Assembly: GCA_030595125.1 (NCBI GenBank)
Contig: JAUVDV010000009.1
Location: 18,954-82,953, forward strand
Direction of reading: 5' to 3'
Source of the DNA: Deltaproteobacteria bacterium
GTDB taxonomy: Bacteria > Myxococcota_A > Polyangia > JAAYKL01
DNA: 64,000 nucleotides
A model generated the notes under the pieces. That model did no database searches and was not told the origin of the DNA. It saw only the letters and a program-made list of their open reading frames with translations. Below are positions 26,731 to 56,909 of the stretch, piece after piece. How positions within the stretch are numbered: position 1 is the stretch's first letter; each line of letters opens with the position of its first letter. The translations under genes were made by a program, and so were the position numbers.

Positions 26731-26876
26731 GAAGCCTCCTTGTGCAAACCCAGTGCGATCAATATCGAGTTTCGGATGTCCCGGCAGCACTTATCTGCCT
26801 GGACAGAGGTAACGTGCGGAGAATTCTTTTTTGTGGCATTCTAAAACTATCTTAATGAAAAACAGGAGTGTTGAGT

Positions 26877-28538
26877 ATGCGTTATTCCTTGATGGTGTTT
26901 CTTGCGGTCGCTGTCCTGGCCAATTTTGGGTGTGAGCCGGTAAGGGTTGCCCCCAATCCAGGGGATTCGGACTCGGATTCGGATACGGATACCGACACCG
27001 ATACGGACGCTGATAGTGACACCGATTCCGACGTGGACACCGACACCGAGTACACCGGGCCGGCGATCCCCGAGACCTGCGCGGACGCAGCCCAGATCCT
27101 CACGTCTGTCGGTTGCGAATTCTACCCCGTGGATCTCAACAATATCGGCTCTGCCGATGGAGCTCCCTATGCGGTGGTGGTCTCCAACCCCCAGGAACTG
27201 GACTCGGGCTCTGACGCTCACGTCATAATCGAAGACATGCGAGGGGCGGGCAACACTCTGAGGACCGTGCCGGGCATGGATGTAGTTCTCGCTCCGGGGG
27301 ATCTCCACATCTTCGAATTGACCTGCACTTCCGGTTGCCCCGAGCAGTCGACCCAGATAGAGGGCTCGGGCCTCGCGGCCTTATCCGCGTTTCGAATCAC
27401 GTCGGACGTTCCGGTGCTCGCCTACCAGTGGAACCCCTATGGAGAGGGGCTCGCCACCACTGACGCGTCTTTGCTGATACCGTCCACGAGTCTGGCGGAA
27501 GAATACATCGGCGCCGCGTGGAACAACGGGCCCCCCAGCACCACGGAGAAGGCCCAGCTGACGGTGGTGGGTCTCGAGGACGGCACTCAGGTTTTCTTTA
27601 CCCCGACGGTGGCAACCGCTGCCGGCACAGGGGTTCCGGCCATGACGGCGGGCGTCGAGTCAGCCCCGGTGAACATCAACCGATTCGATGCGGCCCAGAT
27701 CGTACCGGCCGTGATGGACCAGATGCTGACGGGAACCTATATCAGGGCAACCAAGCCCATCGCGGTGTTCGGCGGCCACTCCTGTGCGATGGTGCCTGAT
27801 CCCAGTTACTACGCCTGCGACCATGTTGAGGAGCAGCTCCTTCCACTGGTCGCGTGGGGCACGGAGACTGTCCTTGCGCGCCACGAGGTGCGGGCCGGAG
27901 TGACGGCGGACGTGGACCAGGCGCTCTGGCGAATCATCGCCGGCGCGGATGACATGACCATCACCTTCGATCCGCCGGTCGACGGGGTAGGAGCCTCGTA
28001 CAGCTTTGTGACTCAGGGGGAGATGCTCCAGTTCATGAGTCCAATCGACCACTTTGCCACCGCGATCCTCGACAATCCGCCGGATCCGAGCGAGCCGGAG
28101 GCGCCCTTCTTTGCTATCCAGATCATGACCGGAAGATGGTACGTGGGCGGCACGGCATACGAATGGGGAGATCCCATGATGCTTCTGTCCCCACCCGCAG
28201 GCCAATATCTTGATCGCTATGTTTTCAACACCGACAACCAGTTCGACTTCAGCTACGACGGCATCATCATCGTGAGGCCGACTGGGGTAGCGGTGGATCT
28301 GGATTGCCTCGGCGTCATTGCCGATGCGGAGTTCCAGCAGGTGGGGTCATCCGACTGGGAGGTCGCCAGAGTAGATATCGACAATCCGACAGGAGTGCCC
28401 GGATGTGTGGACGGCGCTCATCGCATCGAGTCGGAGGAGCCGTTCGGCCTTTCGGTGGTGGGAGAGGACTTCGCCAACTCATACGGCTACCTCGGCGGCG
28501 TAGGCGTACGTGCCATCAACCCGATCATCATAGAGTAA
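26877..28538 (+). CDS. (SD/TD)n-stalk protein with IgGFc-binding-protein-like domain
   Basis: SDSDSDTDTDTDTDADSDTDSDVDTD stalk; domain with PYAVVVSNPQ, PVLAYQWNPYG, KPIAVFGGHSCAMVP, CDHVEEQLLPLVAWGTE typical of bacterial IgGFc-binding N-terminal domains. Confidence 0.8.
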   Translation: MRYSLMVFLAVAVLANFGCEPVRVAPNPGDSDSDSDTDTDTDTDADSDTDSDVDTDTEYTGPAIPETCADAAQILTSVGCEFYPVDLNNIGSADGAPYAVVVSNPQELDSGSDAHVIIEDMRGAGNTLRTVPGMDVVLAPGDLHIFELTCTSGCPEQSTQIEGSGLAALSAFRITSDVPVLAYQWNPYGEGLATTDASLLIPSTSLAEEYIGAAWNNGPPSTTEKAQLTVVGLEDGTQVFFTPTVATAAGTGVPAMTAGVESAPVNINRFDAAQIVPAVMDQMLTGTYIRATKPIAVFGGHSCAMVPDPSYYACDHVEEQLLPLVAWGTETVLARHEVRAGVTADVDQALWRIIAGADDMTITFDPPVDGVGASYSFVTQGEMLQFMSPIDHFATAILDNPPDPSEPEAPFFAIQIMTGRWYVGGTAYEWGDPMMLLSPPAGQYLDRYVFNTDNQFDFSYDGIIIVRPTGVAVDLDCLGVIADAEFQQVGSSDWEVARVDIDNPTGVPGCVDGAHRIESEEPFGLSVVGEDFANSYGYLGGVGVRAINPIIIE

Positions 28539-31139: not shown

Positions 31140-32612
31140 ATGAAAAATTCCAAAACCTTAATGCTGATGATTCTCTTGTTCGCGGCATCGCTCGTGGTTA
31201 TCAACGCATGCGAAGACGAAGAGAAAGACCCGGACGCCGGTGAAGACGCCTCGGTAGATGCATCCGACGACGATTCCGGAACCCCCGACGGGTTTACGTG
31301 TCTCGAGTGTCACATCGACGAGGACCTGCTGATTGCCGACCTGGAGGCGGACCCACTCCCGGAACCCGAGGAGCCGGAACCCGAGGGAGAGGGGTGAGCG
31401 GGAGAGCTTCCTCCGTTGGAGGACTGGGAGAAGGTAACAATTGACGAAGAGTTCCTCGCCGACAGGCATTTTGTGGAGTTCTTCAACTCTGATTGCAAGG
31501 CATGTCACGGCGGCGTGGAGCCGGCCCTCACGCGGGCGGAGGCGCACGTCGGGCTGACAGCGGCGCCCTCGTATCCCGACGGTCAACTCTGCACCAATTG
31601 TCACGGCCAGGAAGTCGATGACTACCACACATCGCTCCATTTCGAGAACCGGGGCCTCTACGACCTTCAACACGGGGTTGTGGCGCAGCGCGCGAACCCG
31701 GAGATGATGGCGGAACTGGAAGAGGGAATAACAAACCACTGCACCGGTTGCCACATCAAGGCCTGCGGCGATTGTCACATATCGCGGCCTCACCTGAACG
31801 AGAAGGGTTTCGTCAGCGGGCATGTCTTTTTCAAGACGCCCAAGGCAACAAAAAATTGCACCGGGTGTCACGGCGCTCGTGTGGAAAAAGAGATGCTGGC
31901 CAAGGGAGGCGAGGACATCGAGGGCAATGCCGTCGTCGTCACCGCGGACGTCCACTGGAACCCAAACGCCATGACCTGCGACGCGTGTCACTCGGGGCAT
32001 GGAGATCAATCCGGCATTTACCATCGCTACGACGTCAAGGATGCGGCCACGTGCGAAGGTTGCCATCCGGGCGTCAACACGGACACGTCCAACGCAATGC
32101 ACGCCACCCACGCGAACCCGGCGGGAGACAACCCGTTGCTTCAGTGCCATGTCTGTCACTCGCAGCCGTACAACAACTGCAGAAGCTGCCATGTTCTCAT
32201 CAACGAGGATGAACAGAAGACATTTGACTGCGCGTCAAGCTGGTTCCAGTTCAAGATTGGGAAGAATTACCTCAAGAGCGCGAGGCGACCATACGATTAC
32301 GTAGTGGTCCGCCATGTCCCGGTGGATCCGGATACCTTCGCCTACTATGGGGATGACATTCTCTCCAACTTCGACGTTGCGCCCACGTGGAAATATGCTA
32401 CTCCCCACAACGTGATCAGGCAGATCAAATTGCCCGGAGACGACGTGGCCGACTCTCCGCCACAGGCGAGGAGCTGCAATTCATGTCACGGGCACGAGGA
32501 GTTGTTCCTCGGCTCCGGGGACCTGGAGCCCAACGAGGTTGCGGCAAACGCGTCGGTCGTTGTCACCGATATACCGCAGACACTGCCGGACGGAGGTCCG
32601 GATGGGGGCTGA
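31140..32612 (+). CDS. Multihaem c-type cytochrome lipoprotein with in-frame TGA codon at 31395-31397
   Basis: ORFs 31140-31397 and 31416-32612 lie in the same frame separated only by TGA; signal peptide/lipobox and CLECH upstream, ten CxxCH downstream. Confidence 0.7.
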
Positions 32613-32703
32613 TGAGGAGCCCGGACAAAACAATACATAAGCACTCGTGTAAAATGCACCGGGTGTTTCTAACGTGCCCTTGTGGCACACGGAGGATTTG
32701 AAA

Positions 32704-33822
32704 ATGGAAAAGACTAAACTTTTGCTTCTTTTGTTATCGGCCTTCCTGGTCTTCGGCGCGGTAGCATGCAGCGACGACGATGACGTCGAGACGGATGGCG
32801 GAACAGACACTGACACAGACACTGATACCGATACGGATACTGACACTGACACAGACACCGACACCGATACTGATACTGACACTGATACCGACACCGATGC
32901 AGAAGCCGACCGCATCGATGAGATTTTTGATGCACTGGATGGATACGTTGATGACGATACCGTCAAGCCGATAATTAGTGCACAGGATGTTTACGATAAC
33001 ATTGTTGTGCCTGTAGACACCGACTACCAGCTCATCGACGTGAGGCCTACGGCTCATTACGACGGCGGGCACGTGGCCGGCACACTCAATCTTCCATTCG
33101 GCGCCGACTGGGCGACCGACACAGTCCTGGATCAGGTCGACGACTCAAAGACGATCATCGTGATCTGTCACACGGGTCACAAGGCCTCCATGATCACCGT
33201 CTACCTTCGTCTAATGGGCTATGACGCCTTTGCGATGGCTTACGGAATGATGGCCTGGACCACAGACCTTTCCGTGATCGGCCTCGCGGGGACGTACTGC
33301 TCCTCGACCACCATGCCCCATGATTATGCAACGGTTACAGATGCCGTAACGCCTGCAACAGACAATGATATCCCCGAGATCATGAGCGCCCTTACCGGCA
33401 ACGATCTCATGATGGACCTCTTCGACGGATATATGTCTGCCCTGGGAACCGATTCTCCGGTCATCACGCCCGGCGACTACTACGACAATGTATTGGTACC
33501 AGTTGATGACTCCTACTTCCTGATTGATGTACGTTCGGCAGATCATTTCGATGATCATATCGTGAATGCGATCAACATTCCTTACGGCACGTGGAACGCC
33601 AAGACCATCATGGAGATGATTCCCGATGACAAGACGATCATCACCCATTGTTACACCGGCCACACCGCGTCGCAGACGGCTGCTATCCTCAACCTGCTGG
33701 GATACGAGGCCTACGCAATGGCCTACAGCATGATGGGATGGACCTCCGTCACCGACGAAATCGGAATAACGACTATCCTCGATTGCAGCACCGTTACGGA
33801 TAAGCCCGTCGAAACCACCTAG
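32704..33822 (+). CDS. (TD)n-stalk lipoprotein with tandem rhodanese domains
   Basis: LVFGAVACSDDDD lipobox, TDTDTDTD stalk, two copies of QLIDVRPTAHYDGGHVAGTLNLPFG / FLIDVRSADHFDDHIVNAINIPYG and VICHTGHKAS / ITHCYTGHTAS. Confidence 0.92.
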   Translation: MEKTKLLLLLLSAFLVFGAVACSDDDDVETDGGTDTDTDTDTDTDTDTDTDTDTDTDTDTDTDTDAEADRIDEIFDALDGYVDDDTVKPIISAQDVYDNIVVPVDTDYQLIDVRPTAHYDGGHVAGTLNLPFGADWATDTVLDQVDDSKTIIVICHTGHKASMITVYLRLMGYDAFAMAYGMMAWTTDLSVIGLAGTYCSSTTMPHDYATVTDAVTPATDNDIPEIMSALTGNDLMMDLFDGYMSALGTDSPVITPGDYYDNVLVPVDDSYFLIDVRSADHFDDHIVNAINIPYGTWNAKTIMEMIPDDKTIITHCYTGHTASQTAAILNLLGYEAYAMAYSMMGWTSVTDEIGITTILDCSTVTDKPVETT

Positions 33823-33837
33823 AAGAGGTTTTTAGAA

Positions 33838-34440
33838 ATGCTCATGCGCTTTCCGGTTTTTTCTATTGTGCTTTCGCTGGCAGTCGGGTTGTTATCTGTG
33901 GCCTGTCTGGACGTCGCGAACGACTCGGACCACCAGGATCAGGACGCCGGTGAGGGTTGCCTCGCCTGTCACCACACTGGTGATGATTATGGCACCTGTG
34001 CCGACTGCCACGGGGCTCACGGCGATAGCCAGGCGCATGAGAAGCACCTTATGGCCGAGCTGTGGGGGCAACCGGTGTCATGCGAAGATTGTCATCGGGT
34101 GCCTCTCAGCTTGTTTGAGGGAGATCACTTCAACTCAACCGTGGACGTGGTTTTCGCGGAGGGCAGCCTCGCACGAACCGGGGACCTGGAGCCCGCGTGG
34201 AACGGAATGCGTTGTACTAACGTATATTGCCACGGTGCCGGTCTGACCGGCGGCACGTATACGGAGCCCGCCTGGCAGGGTGAGAAGGAGGAGGGGATCG
34301 TCTGTGGGGATTGCCACGGGATCCCACCCCTCGCGCCCCACACCGACGAGACCGGGTGCTCGTCCTGTCACGCCACTGCGTACACCGATGCCGGTACCCT
34401 CGACTTCGATATGCACCTGAATGGTGTGGTTGAGTTCTAG
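33838..34440 (+). CDS. CxxCH/CxxxxCH cytochrome-type lipoprotein
   Basis: CLACH, CADCH, CEDCH, CTNVYCH (CxxxxCH), CGDCH, CSSCH. Confidence 0.85.
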   Translation: MLMRFPVFSIVLSLAVGLLSVACLDVANDSDHQDQDAGEGCLACHHTGDDYGTCADCHGAHGDSQAHEKHLMAELWGQPVSCEDCHRVPLSLFEGDHFNSTVDVVFAEGSLARTGDLEPAWNGMRCTNVYCHGAGLTGGTYTEPAWQGEKEEGIVCGDCHGIPPLAPHTDETGCSSCHATAYTDAGTLDFDMHLNGVVEF

Positions 34441-34477: not shown

Positions 34478-35575
34478 TTAATTTCCTACGAGGATCTCAT
34501 CCCACCAACCCTGGGAAGAGTCGAAGTTGTAGAAGTCCAGACGACCAAGGCTGGAGACGCTGGTCGATCTGAAAACCCGCCCGGTGGCGATGGATGTGCC
34601 GTTGATATGGACGTCGAACGTGTGGCTCGACCAGTTGATGTTCAATAACTCTATATGATACCAGGTGTTAGCCGAATAGGACATGAGATCCGTCGAGGTC
34701 GCCGATGACGCAACGGCGCGGATGTTGCCGTCATCCTTGAAGTACAGCATCACCATCTGGTTGGTAAGTTCCGGGGTTCCCGGACCGTGCACCACAAAGT
34801 AGGTGTCGGATGATGAGGTCGAACCGGACCTCCCCCAGAACGAAATGGTGGAGGGAGTGAGGCTCGAGAAGGTGTGGTAGAGGCCGTCATAGTGGCCGCC
34901 GGATCCACCGCTGATGCTGAGGCTGTACGTGGTCGAGTCCGCCGCGGTGGCGGTTGTGACGGAGATGGAGTACCCGCCTCCTCCGGTAGACCACCCAACG
35001 TAGTCGCCGTCTTCCCAGTCTTCAAAGAAAATAACCGAGCCCACGCAAGTGCCGGAGACGCACGTCTCTCCCGCCGTGGTGCAGTCTTCGCAGGTGTCCC
35101 CGCAGTGCAAATCGGAATTACACGCGATGCATTCATCGGTATCGCACCACATTGCGACGCCGCACGGAGTGTCGGTGTATGGATAATCACACGCCCCTTC
35201 GTCACACGTTCCGGTGTCGTCGTATTCCCGCAGTGTGTCATCATCAACGCAATAATCCGGGTCCGGCGAATCGCAGACCACGCCGTCGCATGGATCAGAT
35301 CCAGTATCGGAATCGGTATCTGAGTCGGTATCGGAATCGGTATCTGAGTCGGTATCCGAATCGCTGTCGGTATCGGAATCGGTATCTGAATCGGTATCTG
35401 AGTCGGTATCCGAATCGCTGTCGGTATCGGAATCGCTGTCCGACCCGGGGTTGGTGTCAATGCTGGTATTCGCGCATCCGCTAAATAGAAATAGTGTCGC
35501 CAGTAAGAAGACGATCGCGTATTTATCGGCGCTAATAGTGTCACTCAAGTTGGCGATTTGACCGGGATTTTTCAT
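34478..35575 (-). CDS. (SD/TD)n-stalk lipoprotein with LamG/concanavalin-like domain
   Basis: LFLFSGCANTS lipobox, SDSDTDSDSDTDSDTD stalk; FFEDWEDGDYVGWST...WYHIELLNINWSSHTFDVHING. Confidence 0.8.
   Translation of the reverse strand: MKNPGQIANLSDTISADKYAIVFLLATLFLFSGCANTSIDTNPGSDSDSDTDSDSDTDSDTDSDTDSDTDSDSDTDSDTDSDTDSDTDSDTGSDPCDGVVCDSPDPDYCVDDDTLREYDDTGTCDEGACDYPYTDTPCGVAMWCDTDECIACNSDLHCGDTCEDCTTAGETCVSGTCVGSVIFFEDWEDGDYVGWSTGGGGYSISVTTATAADSTTYSLSISGGSGGHYDGLYHTFSSLTPSTISFWGRSGSTSSSDTYFVVHGPGTPELTNQMVMLYFKDDGNIRAVASSATSTDLMSYSANTWYHIELLNINWSSHTFDVHINGTSIATGRVFRSTSVSSLGRLDFYNFDSSQGWWDEILVGN
35302..35446 (-). repeat. Hexanucleotide tract encoding SD/TD stalk (approximate bounds)
   Basis: gtatcggaatcggtatctgagtcggtatcc... 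Confidence 0.85.
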
Positions 35576-35754: not shown

Positions 35755-38700
35755 ATGTCGGATCATTTCAAAAACGTGGGGCTGGACGTCGGCTCCACGA
35801 CGGTGAAGGCAGTTGTCCTCGACCATCGGGATTGCGTCTTGTGGAAAGACTACCGACGCCACAACGCGCGGCAGCCGGAGCTGGTTCTGGAGTTTCTCAA
35901 CGAGATTGAGAGCGCCTTTCCCGGCGAGGATTTACGGGTCTTCACCACCGGTAACGGCGGCAGGTCTCTGGCTCCCCACATCGATGGTTACCACGTGCAG
36001 GAAGTGAACGGGGTTACTTGTGCGGTGGAGCGGATCCACCCGGAGGCGGGGTCGGTCGTGGAGCTCGGCGGGCAGGACGCAAAGGTGATCGTCTGGAAGC
36101 GGGGCTCCGAGGGCGGGAAATCGGCCATCTCCTTCATGAACGACAAGTGCGCGGGCGGCACCGGCGCCACCCTGGACAAGATCTTCGCCAAGATGGGTCT
36201 GGACCCTGACAGACTCGGAGGGATCACGGGACGGGGAAAGACGGTCCATCACATCGCCGCCAAGTGCGGCGTCTTCGCGGAGACCGACGTGGTGGGGCTG
36301 ATGAAGGCCGGCGTGGATGAGCAGGAGATAGTCGTGTCGTTGTGCACGGCCATCGTGAAGCAGAACATAGAGGTGTTGCTCCACGGGAACGTGCTCCCGG
36401 ACGACGTGCTGCTGCTCGGAGGACCGCACACTTATCTTCCGGTGTTCGAGGAAGTGTGGAGACGACTGGTGCCGGAGATCTGGGAGATTCACCGATGGGT
36501 TCCCAAAAAGCGCCCCGTGGAGGAGCTGATCTATGTTCCGCCGGATGCCCAGTATTTCGCTGCCATGGGCGCGGTTTTCTTTGGGCGGGAGAACGTGGTG
36601 AGGGGTGAGGAGGATTTGCGCATATACGGTGGCGCGGATCGGCTGGAGCACTACATAGCTGCGGGCAAGGAGTTACAGCTCCAGTCCAGCGGCGCCTCGA
36701 AGCCGGGCCTTGTAGAATCGGAAGCCGAGGCCCTGGAGTTTATTTCGGAGTATTCGATCCCGTCCTTCAGCCCGAAGGGGAGGCGCTCGGAGACCATAAA
36801 GGGATATCTGGGCATCGACGGCGGATCGACAAGCTCGAAAATAGCGATCATCGATACTGATGGTGAACTGATCTACAAGGACTACGTTCTCTCCAGGGGA
36901 AATCCCATCGTGGATGTGCGCGAGATGTTCCGACGTCTCACGGCGTGGCTGAACGATACTGGAACCTCCTTTGATCTCATCGGCGCGGGGGTGACCGGGT
37001 ACGCGTCATCGATTCTGCGTGAGGCGTTCGATCTGGATCTGGAGATCGTGGAGACCGTCGCTCACATGAAATCCGCAAGAAGCCTCTACGGCGACGTGGA
37101 CGTTATCTGCGATGTGGGGGGCCAGGACATCAAGGTCCTCATCATCAAGCATGGGCGGGTTGTGGATATTCGTCTCAACACCCAGTGCAGCGCAGGAAAC
37201 GGATATTTCCTGCAGAGCATGGCCGAGCAATTCGGCGTTCCCATGGAGGAATACGCGGATCGGGCCTTCAAGGTGCGCCGGGCGCCGTCGTTCAACTACG
37301 GTTGCGCGGTCTTCATGGAGCAGGACAAGGTCAACTTCCAGCAACTCGGATGGAGCAAGGACGAGATCATGGCCGGGCTGGCACTGGTCCTGCCGCTGAA
37401 CATCTGGAATTTCGTCGTGCAGGAGGCGAACTTGAGGCGGCTGGGGACCAGCTTCCTGTTGCAGGGAGGCACCCAGAAAAACCTGGCGGCGGTCAAGGCT
37501 CAGGTTGATTTCATCAAGAGCAGGGTTCCGGGGGCGACGGTTCGTTGTCACAAGTACGCGGACATCGCCGGCGCCATGGGTGCGGCAATCGAGGTGAGGG
37601 AGAACGCCGGTGACGGTCGCAGCTCCTTCGTCGGTCTCGAACGCGCCGGACAGATAGAGTTCAAGTCCATCAACGATGAGAGCACCGTGTGCAAGTTCTG
37701 CTCCAATCGCTGTCCGCGAACGTTCATCGATATTCGCACATCCCGCGATCGTGAAGTTCGCCACATCACCGGCTACGGATGCGAGAAGGGGATGTCGCAG
37801 GATGTCACGAGCATGCGCGAGCGCGAGAAAGAAAAGCTGACGCTTCGGGATCTCAATTCCAACCTGGTGGAGGCGTCGTGCGATGAGGTCTTCGCACAAT
37901 ACGATTTCGAAAAGTCGCCGTTTGCCGCGACGTCGGATCGGATTCACATGGTTGTTGGAATGCCGCGGCTGCTCAACCTCTACGTATACGCGCCGTTTTT
38001 CAGCACATACTTCCGGTCTCTGGGAGTGGGGAAGGTCGTATACAGCGACTATACGTCTGAAAAGCTCTGGAGCGAGGGCAACAAGTGGGGCGCGATCGAT
38101 CCGTGTTTCCCCGCAAAGGTCGCTCCGGCGCACGTTTACAATCTCTTGTTGAACGACGAGGTGACGCACATCTGCTTCCCCATCATCACGCACCTGGAGT
38201 CAATGGTGAACGACGTGCTCGGGAACAACGCCTGCGTCATACAGATGGGCACCCCGGAAGTGGTCGACGCCGCATTCACCAAGGACAGGGACCATTTTAT
38301 CGAGCGTGGTGTGGAGTACTGGAAGCCGCTGGTCCGGATGGACCGACGAGCCGAGGCCGTGGGGAATCTTTTCGACTATTTCGGCGATCGTCTTTCTCTG
38401 ACAGAGGAAGAGAACGCTTACGCGGCGCAGCAGGGTTTTGGGGCCATGAAGGAGTATTTCTCCAGGATGCGCTCCATGGGCTCAGAGGTGTTGAATACAC
38501 TTGTCGCGGATGACAGGATCGGCATCCTCCTCATCGGGCATCCATACCACCACGATATCGGGTTGAATCACGGTATTCTCGAGGAGTTCAGATTGCGCGG
38601 GTTCCCCATCCTTTGCATTGAGTCCATACCCACGGACAGGGAGTTCCTCGATCCCCTGTTCGGCGGCGACGTGGCGGCCGGTACGGTAAGGTCCGCGGTG

Positions 38701-39030
38701 GATATCTCCGACGTGTGGAAGCGAAACTTCAACAGGAACACCAACGTCAAGATCTGGGCGGCCAAGGTTGCGGCACGTCATCCGAACCTGGCGGTGATCG
38801 ACATCAGCAGCTTCAAGTGCGGGCACGACGCGCCGACATACTCATATGTGGACGCCATCATGGACGCGTCATTGACACCGCATTTTCTGTTTCACGACCT
38901 GGATCAGAACAAGCCTTCCGCCACTATCAAGATCAGGATCCAATCCATTGATTATTTTTTGAGATTGGAAGAAGAGTTACTGCGAAAGCGGGTTGATGGC
39001 ATAGTAAGGAAGTTGGAGGAGATCGCCTGA
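35755..39030 (+). CDS. Double BadF/BadG/BcrA/BcrD-type ATPase fused to DUF2229 / COG3580-like domain
   Basis: DVGSTTVKAVVLD and GIDGGSTSSKIAIID phosphate-1 motifs; FMNDKCAGGTGATLD...AKCGVFAE and NTQCSAGNGYFLQ...YGCAVFMEQD cluster Cys; CKFCSNRCPRTF; SSFKCGHDAPTYSYVD (start codon uncertain). Confidence 0.88.
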   Translation: MSDHFKNVGLDVGSTTVKAVVLDHRDCVLWKDYRRHNARQPELVLEFLNEIESAFPGEDLRVFTTGNGGRSLAPHIDGYHVQEVNGVTCAVERIHPEAGSVVELGGQDAKVIVWKRGSEGGKSAISFMNDKCAGGTGATLDKIFAKMGLDPDRLGGITGRGKTVHHIAAKCGVFAETDVVGLMKAGVDEQEIVVSLCTAIVKQNIEVLLHGNVLPDDVLLLGGPHTYLPVFEEVWRRLVPEIWEIHRWVPKKRPVEELIYVPPDAQYFAAMGAVFFGRENVVRGEEDLRIYGGADRLEHYIAAGKELQLQSSGASKPGLVESEAEALEFISEYSIPSFSPKGRRSETIKGYLGIDGGSTSSKIAIIDTDGELIYKDYVLSRGNPIVDVREMFRRLTAWLNDTGTSFDLIGAGVTGYASSILREAFDLDLEIVETVAHMKSARSLYGDVDVICDVGGQDIKVLIIKHGRVVDIRLNTQCSAGNGYFLQSMAEQFGVPMEEYADRAFKVRRAPSFNYGCAVFMEQDKVNFQQLGWSKDEIMAGLALVLPLNIWNFVVQEANLRRLGTSFLLQGGTQKNLAAVKAQVDFIKSRVPGATVRCHKYADIAGAMGAAIEVRENAGDGRSSFVGLERAGQIEFKSINDESTVCKFCSNRCPRTFIDIRTSRDREVRHITGYGCEKGMSQDVTSMREREKEKLTLRDLNSNLVEASCDEVFAQYDFEKSPFAATSDRIHMVVGMPRLLNLYVYAPFFSTYFRSLGVGKVVYSDYTSEKLWSEGNKWGAIDPCFPAKVAPAHVYNLLLNDEVTHICFPIITHLESMVNDVLGNNACVIQMGTPEVVDAAFTKDRDHFIERGVEYWKPLVRMDRRAEAVGNLFDYFGDRLSLTEEENAYAAQQGFGAMKEYFSRMRSMGSEVLNTLVADDRIGILLIGHPYHHDIGLNHGILEEFRLRGFPILCIESIPTDREFLDPLFGGDVAAGTVRSAVDISDVWKRNFNRNTNVKIWAAKVAARHPNLAVIDISSFKCGHDAPTYSYVDAIMDASLTPHFLFHDLDQNKPSATIKIRIQSIDYFLRLEEELLRKRVDGIVRKLEEIA

Positions 39031-40532
39031 TGGGCACAGGGAAGACAAAACCGACCAAGTCTGTCTCGCTTGCGCCCAAGTACGTGCTCGAGGATCAGTG
39101 GCAAGGCTACCGGACGCTCCCCTGGCCCAAGAAGGAGAAGAAGGACGCCACTGTGATGTTCAACTTCGTTGAACGCAGGAAGTCTTACTTCCTCAAGGCG
39201 TACTTCGATCGCAACGGATTCAAATCCTACGATATGGGCGATCACATCAAGGAGGACGTGCGGTGGGGCAAGGAGTACGGCAACCGCATGGAGTGCAATC
39301 CCATGTACTTCACCTCGGGAAGCCTGCTGCGAAACCTGTTCAAAATCGAGAAGGAGACCGGTCTCTCCAGGGAGGAGATCGCGCGAAAGTACGTGTTTTT
39401 GTGCGGCGGCGGCCAGTGTGGCCCGTGCAGGTACGGCATGTATCCGCAGGAATATATGAAGGTTGCGAACGACGCGGGCTTCAAGGATCTTCGCGTCATC
39501 ATCTTTTCCTCGGATATTGGGGCAAAGGAGATGGTCAAGGACAACGCGCTGCCCATGAACCTCATGTTCAGGATCAATCTGATAATAGCCGTTATCCTGG
39601 CGGATCTGGTTCATGCTGCGGAATGTGCGCTGCTGCCATACGCCCACGACAAGGAACTCGTCCGGTCCACGCTCGAGGAGGCGGAGAAGATGCTCCTGGA
39701 GGCATTCAATAGCAAGGCGTATCTCTTCAAGATCCCGAGGGCCATGAGGAAGGTGGGGGACATGTTGGCGGCGATCCCCCGAAAGGAAGAGAAGCTCCCG
39801 CTGATTTTCGTGACCGGAGAGTTTTTTGCCAACCTGGCTCACAACGACGGCAACTACAACCTCCGGCGGTTCATCTCGGAGGAGGGTTGCGAGGTTATTC
39901 CGGGGAACCTCACGCAGAGGGTACTTTACGACAACTGGCGACGTACGGTGGAGGCTCGTCGTGGGGTCAGATTTGCGGCCGATAACAAGGAACGCAGGTT
40001 CTGGAAAAAATCTCTGAGAAAGCAGCGAAACAGCACCGCAGTCATCAACTGGTTGTACCGAAGGTTCGTGAAGGCTCTGGCTCCGCATAAATTCGGCGCG
40101 AGAACCGAGCTCATAGATCTGGATGAGCTGGCGGATCTGGGCAGGGACCTGTATCACCCCGAGATATTCGGCGGTGAGGGCAACCTGGAGATCGGCGAGG
40201 CGATACACTACGTGGGCGAGGTCGACGGGTTCATTTCGTCCAAGCCGTTCGGTTGTATGCCGTCTTCCGGGGTCTCCGACGGAGTTCAGGCAAAGGTCAT
40301 GGCCATGTACCCGGATCTGAATTTCCTCTCCATCGAGACCAGCGGTGACAACGATGTGAGCATCCTCAGCCGCGTGTCCATGCTGTTGTTCAAGGCCCGG
40401 CACAAGGCGGCCTCCAGGGGCGTGGGCGGCGGGCAGAACTCCGCAGAGGAACCGGTTGCACAGAGCGAGCGATCACCCTCCGGCGGGTTTGTGGTGAAGA
40501 GCGTGGACGATATCGTAACCGAGACGAGCTGA
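39030..40532 (+). CDS. COG3581-like partner (2-hydroxyacyl-CoA dehydratase/BCR-related)
   Basis: Start overlaps preceding stop (TGATG); VFLCGGGQCGPCRYGMYPQEY, SSKPFGCMPSSGVSDGVQAKVM. Confidence 0.8.
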   Translation: MGTGKTKPTKSVSLAPKYVLEDQWQGYRTLPWPKKEKKDATVMFNFVERRKSYFLKAYFDRNGFKSYDMGDHIKEDVRWGKEYGNRMECNPMYFTSGSLLRNLFKIEKETGLSREEIARKYVFLCGGGQCGPCRYGMYPQEYMKVANDAGFKDLRVIIFSSDIGAKEMVKDNALPMNLMFRINLIIAVILADLVHAAECALLPYAHDKELVRSTLEEAEKMLLEAFNSKAYLFKIPRAMRKVGDMLAAIPRKEEKLPLIFVTGEFFANLAHNDGNYNLRRFISEEGCEVIPGNLTQRVLYDNWRRTVEARRGVRFAADNKERRFWKKSLRKQRNSTAVINWLYRRFVKALAPHKFGARTELIDLDELADLGRDLYHPEIFGGEGNLEIGEAIHYVGEVDGFISSKPFGCMPSSGVSDGVQAKVMAMYPDLNFLSIETSGDNDVSILSRVSMLLFKARHKAASRGVGGGQNSAEEPVAQSERSPSGGFVVKSVDDIVTETS

Positions 40533-40722
40533 CCTGCATAATGTCTCCACAGCCACGTGGCTTGATCCACAACCGGCAAATCTGGTAGGTTTGAAACCTC
40601 GGTTCAATATTGATTTCTTCGAGAGATGAATTTTTTCGTCCACGCGCCAACAGGTACGTGGAAAACAAAGCGCGGTTCGGAATCACCCGGGCCGGCAACA
40701 ACCGAACGTGGAGGGAAAGACA

Positions 40723-41139
40723 ATGTTCGCATTTTTCACAATGGGATTCCTTGTTGCCGGCGGCATCCTTGCTGCTGCCAGCCTTATAGTAGCGAGAAAA
40801 CCGAACGCACAGGACTTGATCGACAAACTGACACCCTATCAGGGATGGATTGGCATTGTACTTTTCTTCTGGGGTTTCTGGGACATCATCAACGGTCTCG
40901 GTTACATGACCTTCAGCTTTATCGGCGGGACGATCTGGCTTGTCTGTGGAATCGTAGAAATCTTGCTGGGATTCCTGCTCGGCTTTGGTCTCATATCCAA
41001 GTTTGCCCTGAGCAAGAACGAGCAGGCGATGGAGAAAGGCCAGAAGATTCGCGCCAAGCTGGCTCCGTTCCAGGGAATACTGGGCATCATCGCAATCATC
41101 ACCGGCGTGGTGTTCGCGGTAACCTATTTTATTTTCTAG
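40723..41139 (+). CDS. Small membrane protein
   Basis: 143 aa, three to four hydrophobic helices; RBS GGAGGGAAAGACA. Confidence 0.6.
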   Translation: MFAFFTMGFLVAGGILAAASLIVARKPNAQDLIDKLTPYQGWIGIVLFFWGFWDIINGLGYMTFSFIGGTIWLVCGIVEILLGFLLGFGLISKFALSKNEQAMEKGQKIRAKLAPFQGILGIIAIITGVVFAVTYFIF

Positions 41140-41876: not shown

Positions 41877-41993
41877 CGTTAGTCACTCCTTCGTTTTTAC
41901 GGGCGAGATTTTAACTGTTTTGAAAAATGCGCAAAGAGAAAAATGGGCTAGCTCATGTTGCTTAACCGAACACACATGTATAAGGACCTTGAT

Positions 41994-42119
41994 GAACCCC
42001 ATCCCGGCCTTCCCCTGCAAGAGGGGAAGGGGAGGATGATGGGGGCCGACATTAATGAACCCCATCCCGGCTTTCCCCTGCAAGAGGGGAAGGGGAGGAT
42101 GATGGGGGCCGACATATTA
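41994..42119 (+). repeat. Two tandem copies (63-bp period) of GC-rich palindromic element
   Basis: gaaccccatcccggccttcccctgcaagaggggaaggggaggatgatgggggccgacattaat repeated; start positions 41994 and 42057. Confidence 0.9.
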
Positions 42120-42149
42120 ACAGGCACGTACCGGTTGAGGGAGGAATCA

Positions 42150-44198
42150 ATGGGAGCACCAAAGAAAATCGGAATCATCGGAGCGGGAACGATGGGCGCA
42201 GGTATCGCGCAAAAGACGGCTCAGTCGGGACTTGAAGTAGTTCTGATGGATATAGCCGAAGAACCTCTTGCACGCGGGCTCGGGGGAATCCGCAAGATGT
42301 TGGAGAAGGGCGTGGCACGAGGCGTGTTCCGCGAGGGTGAACCGGACAAAATACTCGGGCGCATCAAGGGTACAACCAATATTAGTGACATGGCCGACTG
42401 CGATTTGATTGTCGAGGCCGTTTTTGAGGATCTGGAGATCAAGCGCAAGTTGATTGCCAATCTGGAGGAGGTAGTTCGTCCCGATTGCGTGCTGGGAACG
42501 AACACTTCGTCGTTCAAGGTTGACGCCGTCGCGAAGGGGGCGAAGCATCAGGAGCGGATTGTCGGAATGCACTACTTCTTCCATCCTGCCCAGAACAGGT
42601 TGCTCGAGGTCATTCCCGGTTCCGCGACGTCCTCCCAGGCAAAGGAGATCTCCTGGGCGTTTGCCGAGGCTACCGGCAAGACAGCCATCCATTCGGAGGA
42701 TGCTCCGGGCTTTGTGGTCAATCGCTTCTTCGTGCCGTGGCTCAACGAGTCCGTTAGATTGCTGGAAGAGGGCGTTGCCGATCTGCCCACAATCGATGAC
42801 ACCTGCATGAAGTTCTTCGGAATCGGCATGGGCCCGTTCAAGCTCATGAACGTTACCGGTGTTCCCATCGCTCAACATGCGTCCGAGGGACTCGCCTCCG
42901 AGCTGAGCCCTTTCTACGCCCCGTGTGATCGTCTCAAGGAGCAGGTCTCGGCGAAAAAGGACTGGGATCTGGCGGGTGAACCGTCGGACACAGGCGTGAA
43001 GGACGTGGAGGCCAGGCTTCTGGGAGTGGTGCTCCTCGTTGCTGCGTCTCTTGTGGATGAAGGCGTTTCCACTGCGGAAGATACAGATATTGGCGCAATG
43101 GTCGGCCTTCGCTGGCCGGCGGGACCGTTTGCCCTCGCCAACAGAAAGGGCGTTGAATTGGCCGTGGCCGCCGCCGCAAAAATCGCGAAGAAGTACGATC
43201 TCCCGCTGCCGAAGGCACTGGCCGAGCGTCTGAACAAGGCGACGCCGTTTGTGTTGAACGCGGTCAACCTCGACGTGGAGGACGGAATAGCCCTCATAAC
43301 CATGAACCGACCCAACGCCATGAACGCGCTCGATCCGGAGACGGTGGATTCCCTGGCCGAGGCGTTCGACAAGGCCGCCGGCGACTCTTCGGTAAAGGCC
43401 ATCGTGATCGAGGGCCGCGGCAAGGCCTTCATCGCCGGCGCTGACATCAAGTTCTTCATCAAGGGAATCGATGAGAAAGACATCCCCCGGATAGAGAAAT
43501 TCACGCGCGAGGGGACCGAGCTCTTGCTGCGCATCGACAAGTGCGCCAAGCCGGTTGTCGCCCGCGTCAATGGACTCGCATTGGGCGGCGGAGCGGAGGT
43601 CGCGCTGGCGTGTGACGCCATCATCGCGGACGAGGGAGCGGTCATGGGGTTCCCCGAGACCGGCATTGGGATCTACCCTGGATTGGGCGGAACTCAGCGG
43701 ATGGTCAAGCGTTGCGGTTTGCCCGTTGCCCGCTATCTCCTGTTCACCGGCGACATCGTTCCGGCGGCCAAGGCTGCCGCGTTGGGTCTGGTCGACCGGG
43801 TTGCGCCGTCCGGCGGCACCATGGGCATGATCAAGACTCTCCTGGCCGAGGGAAAGATCGAGGCGGGTGCGGGTGCGGGTGGGCCGGCCGAGCCGTCCTC
43901 TGAGGCTACCGCCGCATACGAGGCCGTTTTCTCGAACGAGAACACGGACAAGCTGTTCGACGGTACTTTCGAGGCCACCGACAAGCAGGGTGAGAAGATC
44001 GCGAAGAAGCTCGGGTTCAAGGCGCCGGTAGCGTTAAAGATGGCCCACGAACTCATGAACAAGGCTTCGGACACCCCCATCGAGGATGGCGTCGAGCTCG
44101 AACTCGCCGGACTGCCCAAGATCTTCGCCACTTCGGACGCCAGGGTCGGCCTGGGGTCGGTGGGCGGCAAGGAGCGGCCTGTCTTCAAGGGAAAGTGA
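42150..44198 (+). CDS. Bifunctional 3-hydroxyacyl-CoA dehydrogenase / enoyl-CoA hydratase (HAD-ECH order)
   Basis: KKIGIIGAGTMGAGIAQKTAQSG; later ALITMNRPNAMNALDPETV...IEGRGKAFIAGADIKFF...NGLALGGGAEVALACD; RBS GAGGGAGGAATCA. Confidence 0.93.
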   Translation: MGAPKKIGIIGAGTMGAGIAQKTAQSGLEVVLMDIAEEPLARGLGGIRKMLEKGVARGVFREGEPDKILGRIKGTTNISDMADCDLIVEAVFEDLEIKRKLIANLEEVVRPDCVLGTNTSSFKVDAVAKGAKHQERIVGMHYFFHPAQNRLLEVIPGSATSSQAKEISWAFAEATGKTAIHSEDAPGFVVNRFFVPWLNESVRLLEEGVADLPTIDDTCMKFFGIGMGPFKLMNVTGVPIAQHASEGLASELSPFYAPCDRLKEQVSAKKDWDLAGEPSDTGVKDVEARLLGVVLLVAASLVDEGVSTAEDTDIGAMVGLRWPAGPFALANRKGVELAVAAAAKIAKKYDLPLPKALAERLNKATPFVLNAVNLDVEDGIALITMNRPNAMNALDPETVDSLAEAFDKAAGDSSVKAIVIEGRGKAFIAGADIKFFIKGIDEKDIPRIEKFTREGTELLLRIDKCAKPVVARVNGLALGGGAEVALACDAIIADEGAVMGFPETGIGIYPGLGGTQRMVKRCGLPVARYLLFTGDIVPAAKAAALGLVDRVAPSGGTMGMIKTLLAEGKIEAGAGAGGPAEPSSEATAAYEAVFSNENTDKLFDGTFEATDKQGEKIAKKLGFKAPVALKMAHELMNKASDTPIEDGVELELAGLPKIFATSDARVGLGSVGGKERPVFKGK

Positions 44199-55797: not shown

Positions 55798-56778
55798 TCA
55801 GGGAATTGCCACCACGCGGATGAATGGAGCCCAGGAGTTGTCACCAGACGGAAATGCGTCGCCTCCGGCCGACTTGCTCTGGACGTTGCCGAAGTAGCTC
55901 GCCACGGTGAACGGTTGGGAGGGATTGCTCTTGTACTGGAAGATCGCGGTGGTCGCCGCCGAGTTGTAGAAGTTCAGAGTGTAGGTTTGTCCCGCCGCGA
56001 GGGTATAAGTGATATCCGAGCGGTACCACTGCTCTATGTTGCTTCCGGACACCGTGGTTCCGCTCGTGAGCAGGGATCCGGAGCTGTTGTATACCCTGGC
56101 GGAGATTGTGCCGCTCGACGGCTGGTTGATGAACCACTCCATGGCGATCAGATCAACGGTGACGGTGGGGGTCACTCTGTAGCCCTTGGACGCCCAGTAT
56201 GGGTCGTCGCTGGTCAGCGCCCCGGTCGGTGGCGTGAGGTCGATGGTTACTTCCGGCGGGAGTTCGGTACAGACACCGCCGTCGCCCTCCCAGCCCGGGT
56301 TGCATTCACAGTCGAACCCCCCGTCGGTGTTGGTGCATGTTGCGTTGACGTCGCAATCGTCGGTGCTGTCGGTGCACTCGTCCATGTCGTCGCACACCAT
56401 TCCGTCGCCGTCATAGCCGTCGATGCAGGCGCAATCGTATGAGCCCTCGGTGTTTGTGCAGTCGGCGTGATACTCGTCGCAGTTGTCCGTTTCATCCGTG
56501 CATTCGTCCAGGTCGTCGCAATCGAGACCGTCGCCCTCCCAGCCCTGATCGCAAACGCACTGGAAGGTGTTCAGGAGGCTCGTGCAGGATGCGTGAGGGT
56601 CACATGGATCGTCTTCGCAGTAGTCCGAATCGCCGTCCGAATCACCGTCCGAATCGCCGTCCGAATCGCCGTCCGCATCGGTATCCGAGGCCTCGTCTTC
56701 CATATCGAGTGAGGTTGATGCACACGAGAGCGCAACCATCGACATCGACACCAGAAATACAAGAATTCGCCAGGGCAT
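55798..56778 (-). CDS. Stalk lipoprotein with calcium-binding EGF-like repeats
   Basis: SMVALSCASTS lipobox; GDSDGDSDGDSDGDSD; DLDECTDETDNCDEYHADCTNTEGSYDCACIDGYDGDG, DMDECTDSTDDCDVNATCTNTDGGFDCECNPGWEGDG. Confidence 0.85.
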   Translation of the reverse strand: MPWRILVFLVSMSMVALSCASTSLDMEDEASDTDADGDSDGDSDGDSDGDSDYCEDDPCDPHASCTSLLNTFQCVCDQGWEGDGLDCDDLDECTDETDNCDEYHADCTNTEGSYDCACIDGYDGDGMVCDDMDECTDSTDDCDVNATCTNTDGGFDCECNPGWEGDGGVCTELPPEVTIDLTPPTGALTSDDPYWASKGYRVTPTVTVDLIAMEWFINQPSSGTISARVYNSSGSLLTSGTTVSGSNIEQWYRSDITYTLAAGQTYTLNFYNSAATTAIFQYKSNPSQPFTVASYFGNVQSKSAGGDAFPSGDNSWAPFIRVVAIP

Positions 56779-56909
56779 CTCTTCTCCTGATATTCGGCCC
56801 CCAAAGATTTCGCACAACGGGGCCGAACGAATCTATTTTGAAATTATCGCATTGTTGAGGGAAAACAGGAATTGTTTTCAGGCTAAAAGTTTAGGTAGGA
56901 TTATCCCCG

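Follow-up and report, generated by a model that had tools for sequence, protein, structure and literature searches.

A gene pair in a Myxococcota genome as a probable split relative of the PlsA/PlsR and Ger ester-to-ether lipid reductases

The window analysed here is a 64,000-nucleotide stretch of contig JAUVDV010000009.1 from a Deltaproteobacteria bacterium (assembly GCA_030595125.1), and its subject is a pair of overlapping open reading frames, ORF A and ORF B, which belong by domain composition to the benzoyl-CoA reductase/2-hydroxyacyl-CoA dehydratase (BCR/HAD) superfamily and probably encode a lipid-ester reductase of the kind represented by the plasmalogen synthase PlsA/PlsR and the glycerol ester reductase Ger.

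Domain organization and fold of the gene pair

ORF A begins with an ATG at 35755 and ends with a TGA at 39028-39030, the last base of which is shared with the ATG of ORF B at 39030 (a one-base overlap, TGATG), while ORF B closes with a TGA at 40530-40532; an earlier sequence-only reading, which let the partner start within the stop codon of the first gene, is thus borne out. That reading had also placed two activase domains and a DUF2229 domain in a single chain, and the Pfam search agrees, matching two PF01869 stretches (whole-protein E 4.5e-77) and PF09989/DUF2229 (E 4.7e-42) in ORF A, with all of the quoted motifs present.

35755..39030, + strand: ORF A, PlsA-like subunit (Act1, Act2, Fe-S insert and Red1), 1091 aa
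39030..40532, + strand: ORF B, PlsR/Red2-like subunit with the BCR/HAD catalytic-subunit fold, 500 aa
35773..36582, + strand: Act1, first BcrA/D-type activase (actin-like ATPase) domain, residues 7-276 (TIGR02261 match 8-276; HadI 4eht)
36808..37590, + strand: Act2, second activase domain, residues 352-612 (HgdC 1hux)
37954..38625, + strand: DUF2229/PF09989 part of Red1, the first reduction domain, residues 734-957 (Pfam)

The activase halves of ORF A have sequence relatives among the solved activators HgdC (1hux), HadI (4eht), DCCP-R (7yyl) and MbdP/MbdQ (9gai), and the AlphaFold model of the protein (pLDDT 85) matches HgdC, HadI, MbdQ/MbdP and DCCP-R in the Protein Data Bank (PDB). ORF B has no family match in Pfam or NCBIfam, and PDB sequence searches with ORF B alone or with an ORF B profile found nothing; only the fold search gave matches, its model (pLDDT 81.5) retrieving the DCCP structure 7yzm as the best hit (E 9e-4, probability 1.0). 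Because the 12 best matches are all BCR/HAD catalytic subunits (DCCP, HadBC, BzdNO, MbdON), ORF B is predicted from its modelled fold to be a catalytic-type subunit.

Relationship to PlsA/PlsR and Ger and conservation of the cluster cysteines

PlsA/PlsR is an ATP-dependent enzyme that converts a diacyl phospholipid ester into a vinyl ether, and Ger is its alkyl-ether-forming homologue. In Clostridium perfringens, PlsA and PlsR form a two-gene BCR/HAD-family operon with the domains Act1, Act2, Red1 and Red2, expression of which in Escherichia coli yields plasmalogens, while several facultative anaerobes carry pls as a single gene (PMC12838417) and Listeria is among the listed carriers of pls orthologues (PMC9702350). 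Expression in E. coli has also been achieved for Ger of Desulfatibacillum alkenivorans (PMC11150832, PMC13274423). The remark in the sequence-only reading that fused activase families are largely uncharacterised is out of date, plsA/plsR having been identified in 2021 and Ger in 2022 (as cited in PMC9702350 and PMC11150832).

The gene pair resembles PlsA/PlsR, both the C. perfringens form (CPE1194-1195) and the single-gene forms of Listeria and Enterococcus faecalis, in the order Act1-Act2-Red1-Red2, in the position of DUF2229 within Red1, and in carrying activator cysteines and a three-cysteine set in each Red domain; as in C. perfringens and Fusobacterium, it is split into two adjacent genes. 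A search of a plasmid collection returned distant relatives only, which were of use as PlsA references. The PlsA proteins compared come from Listeria (fused), Collinsella, Haliovirga (fused) and Fusobacterium (a two-gene PlsA/PlsR-like form, 975 + 404 aa), and the order Act1-Act2-DUF2229/Red1 with a separate Red2 in the pair matches that of the Fusobacterium two-gene form as well as of the fused proteins from Listeria and Haliovirga. Ger, which we compare by description only, shares with the pair two PF01869 domains (the 'BB' architecture, PMC13274423) and Red domains in Thermotoga maritima and D. alkenivorans, although the D. alkenivorans protein is a single 159-kDa chain (PMC11150832) rather than the product of two genes.

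In a tree of 85 modules, built without the tested C. perfringens and Ger sequences, the pair falls in a clade of 62 sequences (support 0.95) that is sister to the 4 PlsA proteins rather than nested inside them, the grouping of the two having a support of 1.0 and the fused paralogues of the pair's own class lying outside it. As the placement of the whole module depends on a midpoint root, Act1 and Act2 were combined with single activases in one tree where the paralogous domains root each other, and the pair and PlsA again emerge as sisters in each half. The source genome encodes three more fused proteins of the same architecture (1412-1447 aa; L018:4926-9164 on contig 8, L019:6950-11194 on contig 2 and L020:4989-9332 on contig 143) and, judged by sequence, appears to hold four PlsA/Ger-family systems including the pair.

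The motif cysteines listed below are invariant in alignments of 44 ORF A and 52 ORF B homologues, which, with the adjacency of A and B in nearly all relatives examined, argues that the pair is not a product of chance.

36148..36150, + strand: Cys132 (KCAGGTG), putative activator [4Fe-4S] ligand in Act1 (conservation)
36265..36267, + strand: Cys171 (KCGVFAE), putative activator [4Fe-4S] ligand in Act1 (conservation)
37186..37188, + strand: Cys478 (QCSAGNG), putative activator [4Fe-4S] ligand in Act2 (conservation)
37303..37305, + strand: Cys517 (GCAVFME), putative activator [4Fe-4S] ligand in Act2 (conservation)
37690..37782, + strand: four-Cys motif C646-x2-C649-x3-C653-x22-C676, putative extra [4Fe-4S] relay in the Act2/Red1 linker
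38104..38106, + strand: Cys784, putative Red1 cluster ligand (conservation)
38233..38235, + strand: Cys827, putative Red1 cluster ligand (conservation)
38818..38820, + strand: Cys1022 (FKCGHDAP), putative Red1 cluster ligand (conservation)
39294..39296, + strand: ORF B Cys89 (ECNP), putative Red2 cluster ligand (conservation)
39417..39419, + strand: ORF B Cys130 (leading Cys of CGPC), with invariance confined to the pair clade
39426..39428, + strand: ORF B Cys133, putative Red2 cluster ligand (conservation)
40254..40256, + strand: ORF B Cys409 (KPFGCMPS), putative Red2 cluster ligand (conservation)

The set A132/171/478/517, A646/649/653/676, A784/827/1022 and B89/133/409 is present in 62/62 members of the pair clade and in all 4 PlsA proteins (Listeria, Collinsella, Fusobacterium, Haliovirga), and every cysteine conserved among the latter is also kept in the pair. 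The four-Cys motif of ORF A is invariant in both groups, and three of its four cysteines recur in most of the fused paralogues. What sets the pair clade apart from the PlsA set, and is new here, is the invariant Cys130 of ORF B, found in 62/62 clade members versus 1/4 PlsA proteins and 2/19 fused paralogues; a branch of the clade from taxa usually called aerobic has in addition near-invariant cysteines of its own (A143, A234), absent from PlsA.

Three cysteines per Red domain recall BzdO, the class I BCR catalytic subunit whose three cysteines hold a [4Fe-4S]-OH2 cluster, in contrast to the BzdN double cubane with its six (PMC11971306), as Red1 has three and ORF B four invariant cysteines. A six-Cys [8Fe-9S] ligand set within one subunit is not recognisable in the homologue alignments of either Red1 or ORF B. 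The same holds against DCCP, for although this protein is the closest structural match of ORF B and 7yyl_E is a good match of Act2, DCCP forms a homodimer, works with a separate activase dimer and contains [8Fe-9S] clusters. The Pfam matches, fold matches and cysteine conservation agree with the sequence-only reading that the pair is an ATP-dependent, low-potential BCR/HAD-superfamily reductase in which a single chain unites the two activase halves.

Judged by its domain order, the folds of ORF B and the activases, cysteine conservation, A-B adjacency, the sister relation to PlsA and the lipid-gene neighbours in other genomes described below, the pair is probably a split enzyme of the PlsA/PlsR or Ger type, whereas the presence of the clusters, the path of the electrons, the lipid nature of the substrate and the identity of the product are inferred. 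Act1 and Act2 would fold as an ATP-binding pseudo-dimer around one shared [4Fe-4S] cluster, with two cysteines from each half, and ATP hydrolysis would drive single low-potential electrons through the four-Cys motif to the [4Fe-4S] clusters of Red1, the C-terminal half of ORF A, and Red2, represented by ORF B, each putatively held by three invariant cysteines as in BzdO and HadB. According to the proposed chemistry (PMC8788747), the ester undergoes two sequential electron reductions and is protonated and dehydrated; here a membrane phospholipid ester would undergo one-electron reduction steps, protonation and dehydration to a vinyl ether (plasmalogen), or alternatively further reduction to an alkyl ether. 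Sequence cannot tell the product type or the glycerol position, in keeping with the report that PlsA and Ger are impossible to assign by primary structure (PMC13274423).

Distribution and gene neighbours of the pair

A scan of GTDB genomes with the ORF B profile gave at least 588 pattern matches, of which at least 584 were confirmed, placing the pair in hundreds of genomes. Among the best 80 of these 584, a close clade at 55-67% identity comprises Deltaproteobacteria-labelled, Chitinispirillum/Fibrobacterota and Spirochaetales metagenome-assembled genomes (MAGs), and a broad clade at ~33-38% identity includes Brevibacillus, Paenibacillus, Bacillus, Aneurinibacillus, Sulfurovum, Myxococcales including Kofleriaceae, Saccharophagus and others. 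Brevibacillus, Paenibacillus, Bacillus, Saccharophagus, Kofleriaceae and Sulfurovum are lineages usually called aerobic or facultative. In this aerobic-taxa branch the C-terminal tail after B456 is longer, with a median of 70 residues versus 18, which together with Cys130 (CGPC) of ORF B marks a difference from PlsA/PlsR. The pair clade is an uncharacterised subfamily that has an extra invariant cysteine and of which a large branch belongs to such aerobic or facultative lineages.

The PlsA of L. cremoris is oxygen-tolerant, and an elongated C-terminal helix has been proposed as the reason (PMC12838417); although this is a parallel only, it renders the idea of an oxygen-adapted branch testable. 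We tentatively raise the possibility, itself rather doubtful, that the pair represents a distinct oxygen-adapted branch of ATP-dependent ester-to-ether lipid reductases, the larger part of which resides in aerobic or facultative lineages. Metagenomic surveys queried with Ger have reported homologues in Myxococcota (PMC11868695), and members of the pair clade may already have been counted there. A correlation with the classic producers of plasmalogens, drawn by way of Fibrobacter (Bacteroides succinogenes, PMC9702350), was not used as evidence, given that the close pair is patchy in that family (3/24 genomes) and the MAG labels are uncertain. The aerobic plasmalogen desaturase CarF (PF10520) is absent from the source genome and occurs in 8/59 related genomes, 5 of them with the pair, without a clear pattern.

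ORF A and ORF B are adjacent in nearly all loci where both are readable, other ORFs standing between them in L077, and neighbour clustering of the loci revealed no partner conserved across phyla beyond A-B. In other genomes the immediate neighbours of the pair are enriched in phospholipid genes: of 94 such genes, 9 are PLD-like/cardiolipin-synthase-type (PLDc_N matches 5) and 5 are Lgt, and one cyclopropane-fatty-acid (CFA) synthase occurs as well. For comparison, 94 genes situated 3-4 positions away were grouped into families, and the 25 most frequent of these include neither PLD-like genes nor Lgt. As the loci are related to one another, we take this signal as support rather than proof. TetR regulators adjoin the pair in several carriers, an arrangement also reported for pls of E. 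faecalis (PMC9702350).

Within the window, the pair is followed directly by an ORF of 143 aa that contains hydrophobic stretches (40708-41139); it is 96-97% identical in two same-genus genomes, has no family match and was not found beside the pair elsewhere. Further downstream (41955-44198) lies an HADH-ECH fusion of 3-hydroxyacyl-CoA dehydrogenase and enoyl-CoA hydratase, with the FadB order reversed, which adjoins a benzoate-CoA-ligase-family gene. The stretches upstream of the pair (31416-34440 and 34478-35575) encode multihaem-cytochrome-like proteins, others that carry long (S/T)D repeats and one protein with rhodanese-like repeats as judged by eye. EGF repeats and an IgGFc-binding domain, here in bacterial proteins, are found at 55798-56817 and 26868-28538.

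Alternative substrates and significance

The source genome (G000; 5.39 Mb, 95% complete) carries a class II benzoyl-CoA pathway (BamB, BamD/E-like, BamA, BamQ) in a Myxococcota background, on contigs 174 (L024:6055-12911) and 178 (L150:1496-3802). On contig 174 a protein of the aldehyde-oxidoreductase family matches the solved BamB of the class II benzoyl-CoA reductase end to end with 1198 bits (next solved structure 215), with a CCG (HdrD-like) and an HdrA-like gene downstream, and contig 178 holds BamA (TIGR03200, 538.5 bits, cut-off 464) and BamQ (TIGR03201, 511 bits, cut-off 339). An AFOR gene on contig 178 that adjoins HdrA-like genes was rejected as a BamB candidate, its PDB scores placing it closer to aldehyde oxidoreductase (351 vs 236 bits), the real BamB being that of contig 174. 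Separately, contig 179 (L022:3933-5909) encodes a fusion protein in which an Fe-S N-terminus resembling those of NuoG and [FeFe]-hydrogenase chains precedes an AFOR-type domain.

That the pair is an alternative ATP-dependent reductase of benzoyl-CoA or another aromatic acyl-CoA was suggested by the sequence-only reading, which also spoke of a benzoyl-CoA gene neighbourhood. The latter holds in part: of two genes within 11 kb of the pair, the benzoate-CoA-ligase-family gene passes its curated NCBIfam cut-off and the dienoyl-CoA-hydratase-like gene does not, and the annotated part of the window showed no gene for a benzoyl-CoA reductase. Synteny of an SDR and the HADH-ECH gene, kept partly in one same-genus genome, and kinship to the class I enzymes BcrABCD/BzdNOPQ/MbdNOPQ, superfamily members in which an activase pair sharing a [4Fe-4S] cluster serves a catalytic dimer of the same fold, also speak for it. 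Yet the activases of ORF A score far below the equivalog cut-offs for BcrA, BcrD and BzdQ (115 vs 578, 84 vs 313 and 99 vs 380 bits), ORF B matches neither the BcrB/C nor the BzdN/O models, no class I catalytic subunits adjoin the pair, and the sole clear PF06050 protein of the genome is HadB-like, on contig 178 and below cut-off. Strong ORF B matches (>200 bits) occur in 28/59 related genomes and BamA in 15/59, with an overlap of 5 observed versus 7.1 expected and hence no association; BamA is missing from 39/40 other pair carriers tested, and in G004, G005, G012 and G013, which belong to the same family outside the genus and whose ORF B is 67-68% identical, it is likewise absent and the aromatic gene neighbours do not stand beside the pairs. 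Because a canonical benzoyl-CoA reductase lies elsewhere in the genome and the pair is widespread where BamA is lacking, we reject the aromatic reading, to which we assign a minimal residual chance; its premise of an aromatic or acyl-CoA substrate also gives way to the fact that the nearest functionally studied relatives are PlsA lipid-ester reductases rather than aromatic reductases.

More weight, though still well short of an even chance, goes to an ATP-dependent radical enzyme of the same superfamily acting on some other ester or thioester, for instance a 2-hydroxyacyl-CoA dehydratase or a house-keeping reductase, whose likeness to PlsA would be architectural only. Several points favour it: identity to the PlsA proteins is low (25-27%), the extra invariant Red2 cysteine and the lineage-specific cysteines of the aerobic-taxa branch could mean a different chemistry, and cross-phylum neighbours beyond A-B are lacking. 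Against the lipid assignment it also counts that neither Ger nor C. perfringens is represented in the tree by an experimentally tested sequence, that the Listeria, Collinsella, Haliovirga and Fusobacterium references are PlsA by homology (Listeria also by review), that ORF B has no Pfam match, that the lipid-neighbour signal stems mostly from Paenibacillaceae and Sulfurovum loci and is not phylogenetically independent, and that in the window's own genus the pair adjoins acyl-CoA genes rather than lipid genes. What nevertheless argues against another substrate is that the pair emerges as sister to PlsA both in the whole-module tree and for each activase domain, that all PlsA cysteines are retained and that lipid genes are neighbours in several phyla. 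It is very unlikely that ORF A is a pure activator of another catalytic dimer, such as the HGD-D protein of contig 178, with ORF B as an accessory: activase domains do act as activators in HAD enzymes, but the HGD-D gene is followed directly by a 260-aa activase of its own, Red1 and ORF B each carry an invariant three-Cys set, and the two genes are found with each other as a module that stands isolated.

A PlsA/PlsR- or Ger-type assignment moves the pair from a possible aromatic reductase to a testable role in membrane lipids. The BCR/HAD superfamily is regarded as highly oxygen-sensitive, and its route to ether lipids and plasmalogens as essentially anaerobic. If the assignment holds, ether-linked lipids would be made by many aerobic or facultative bacteria and by Myxococcota like the source organism, the aerobic-taxa carriers forming ether lipids or plasmalogens by a supposedly anaerobic route, which would bear both on where the bacterial ether lipids that serve as environmental markers come from and on how far this family of radical enzymes tolerates oxygen.

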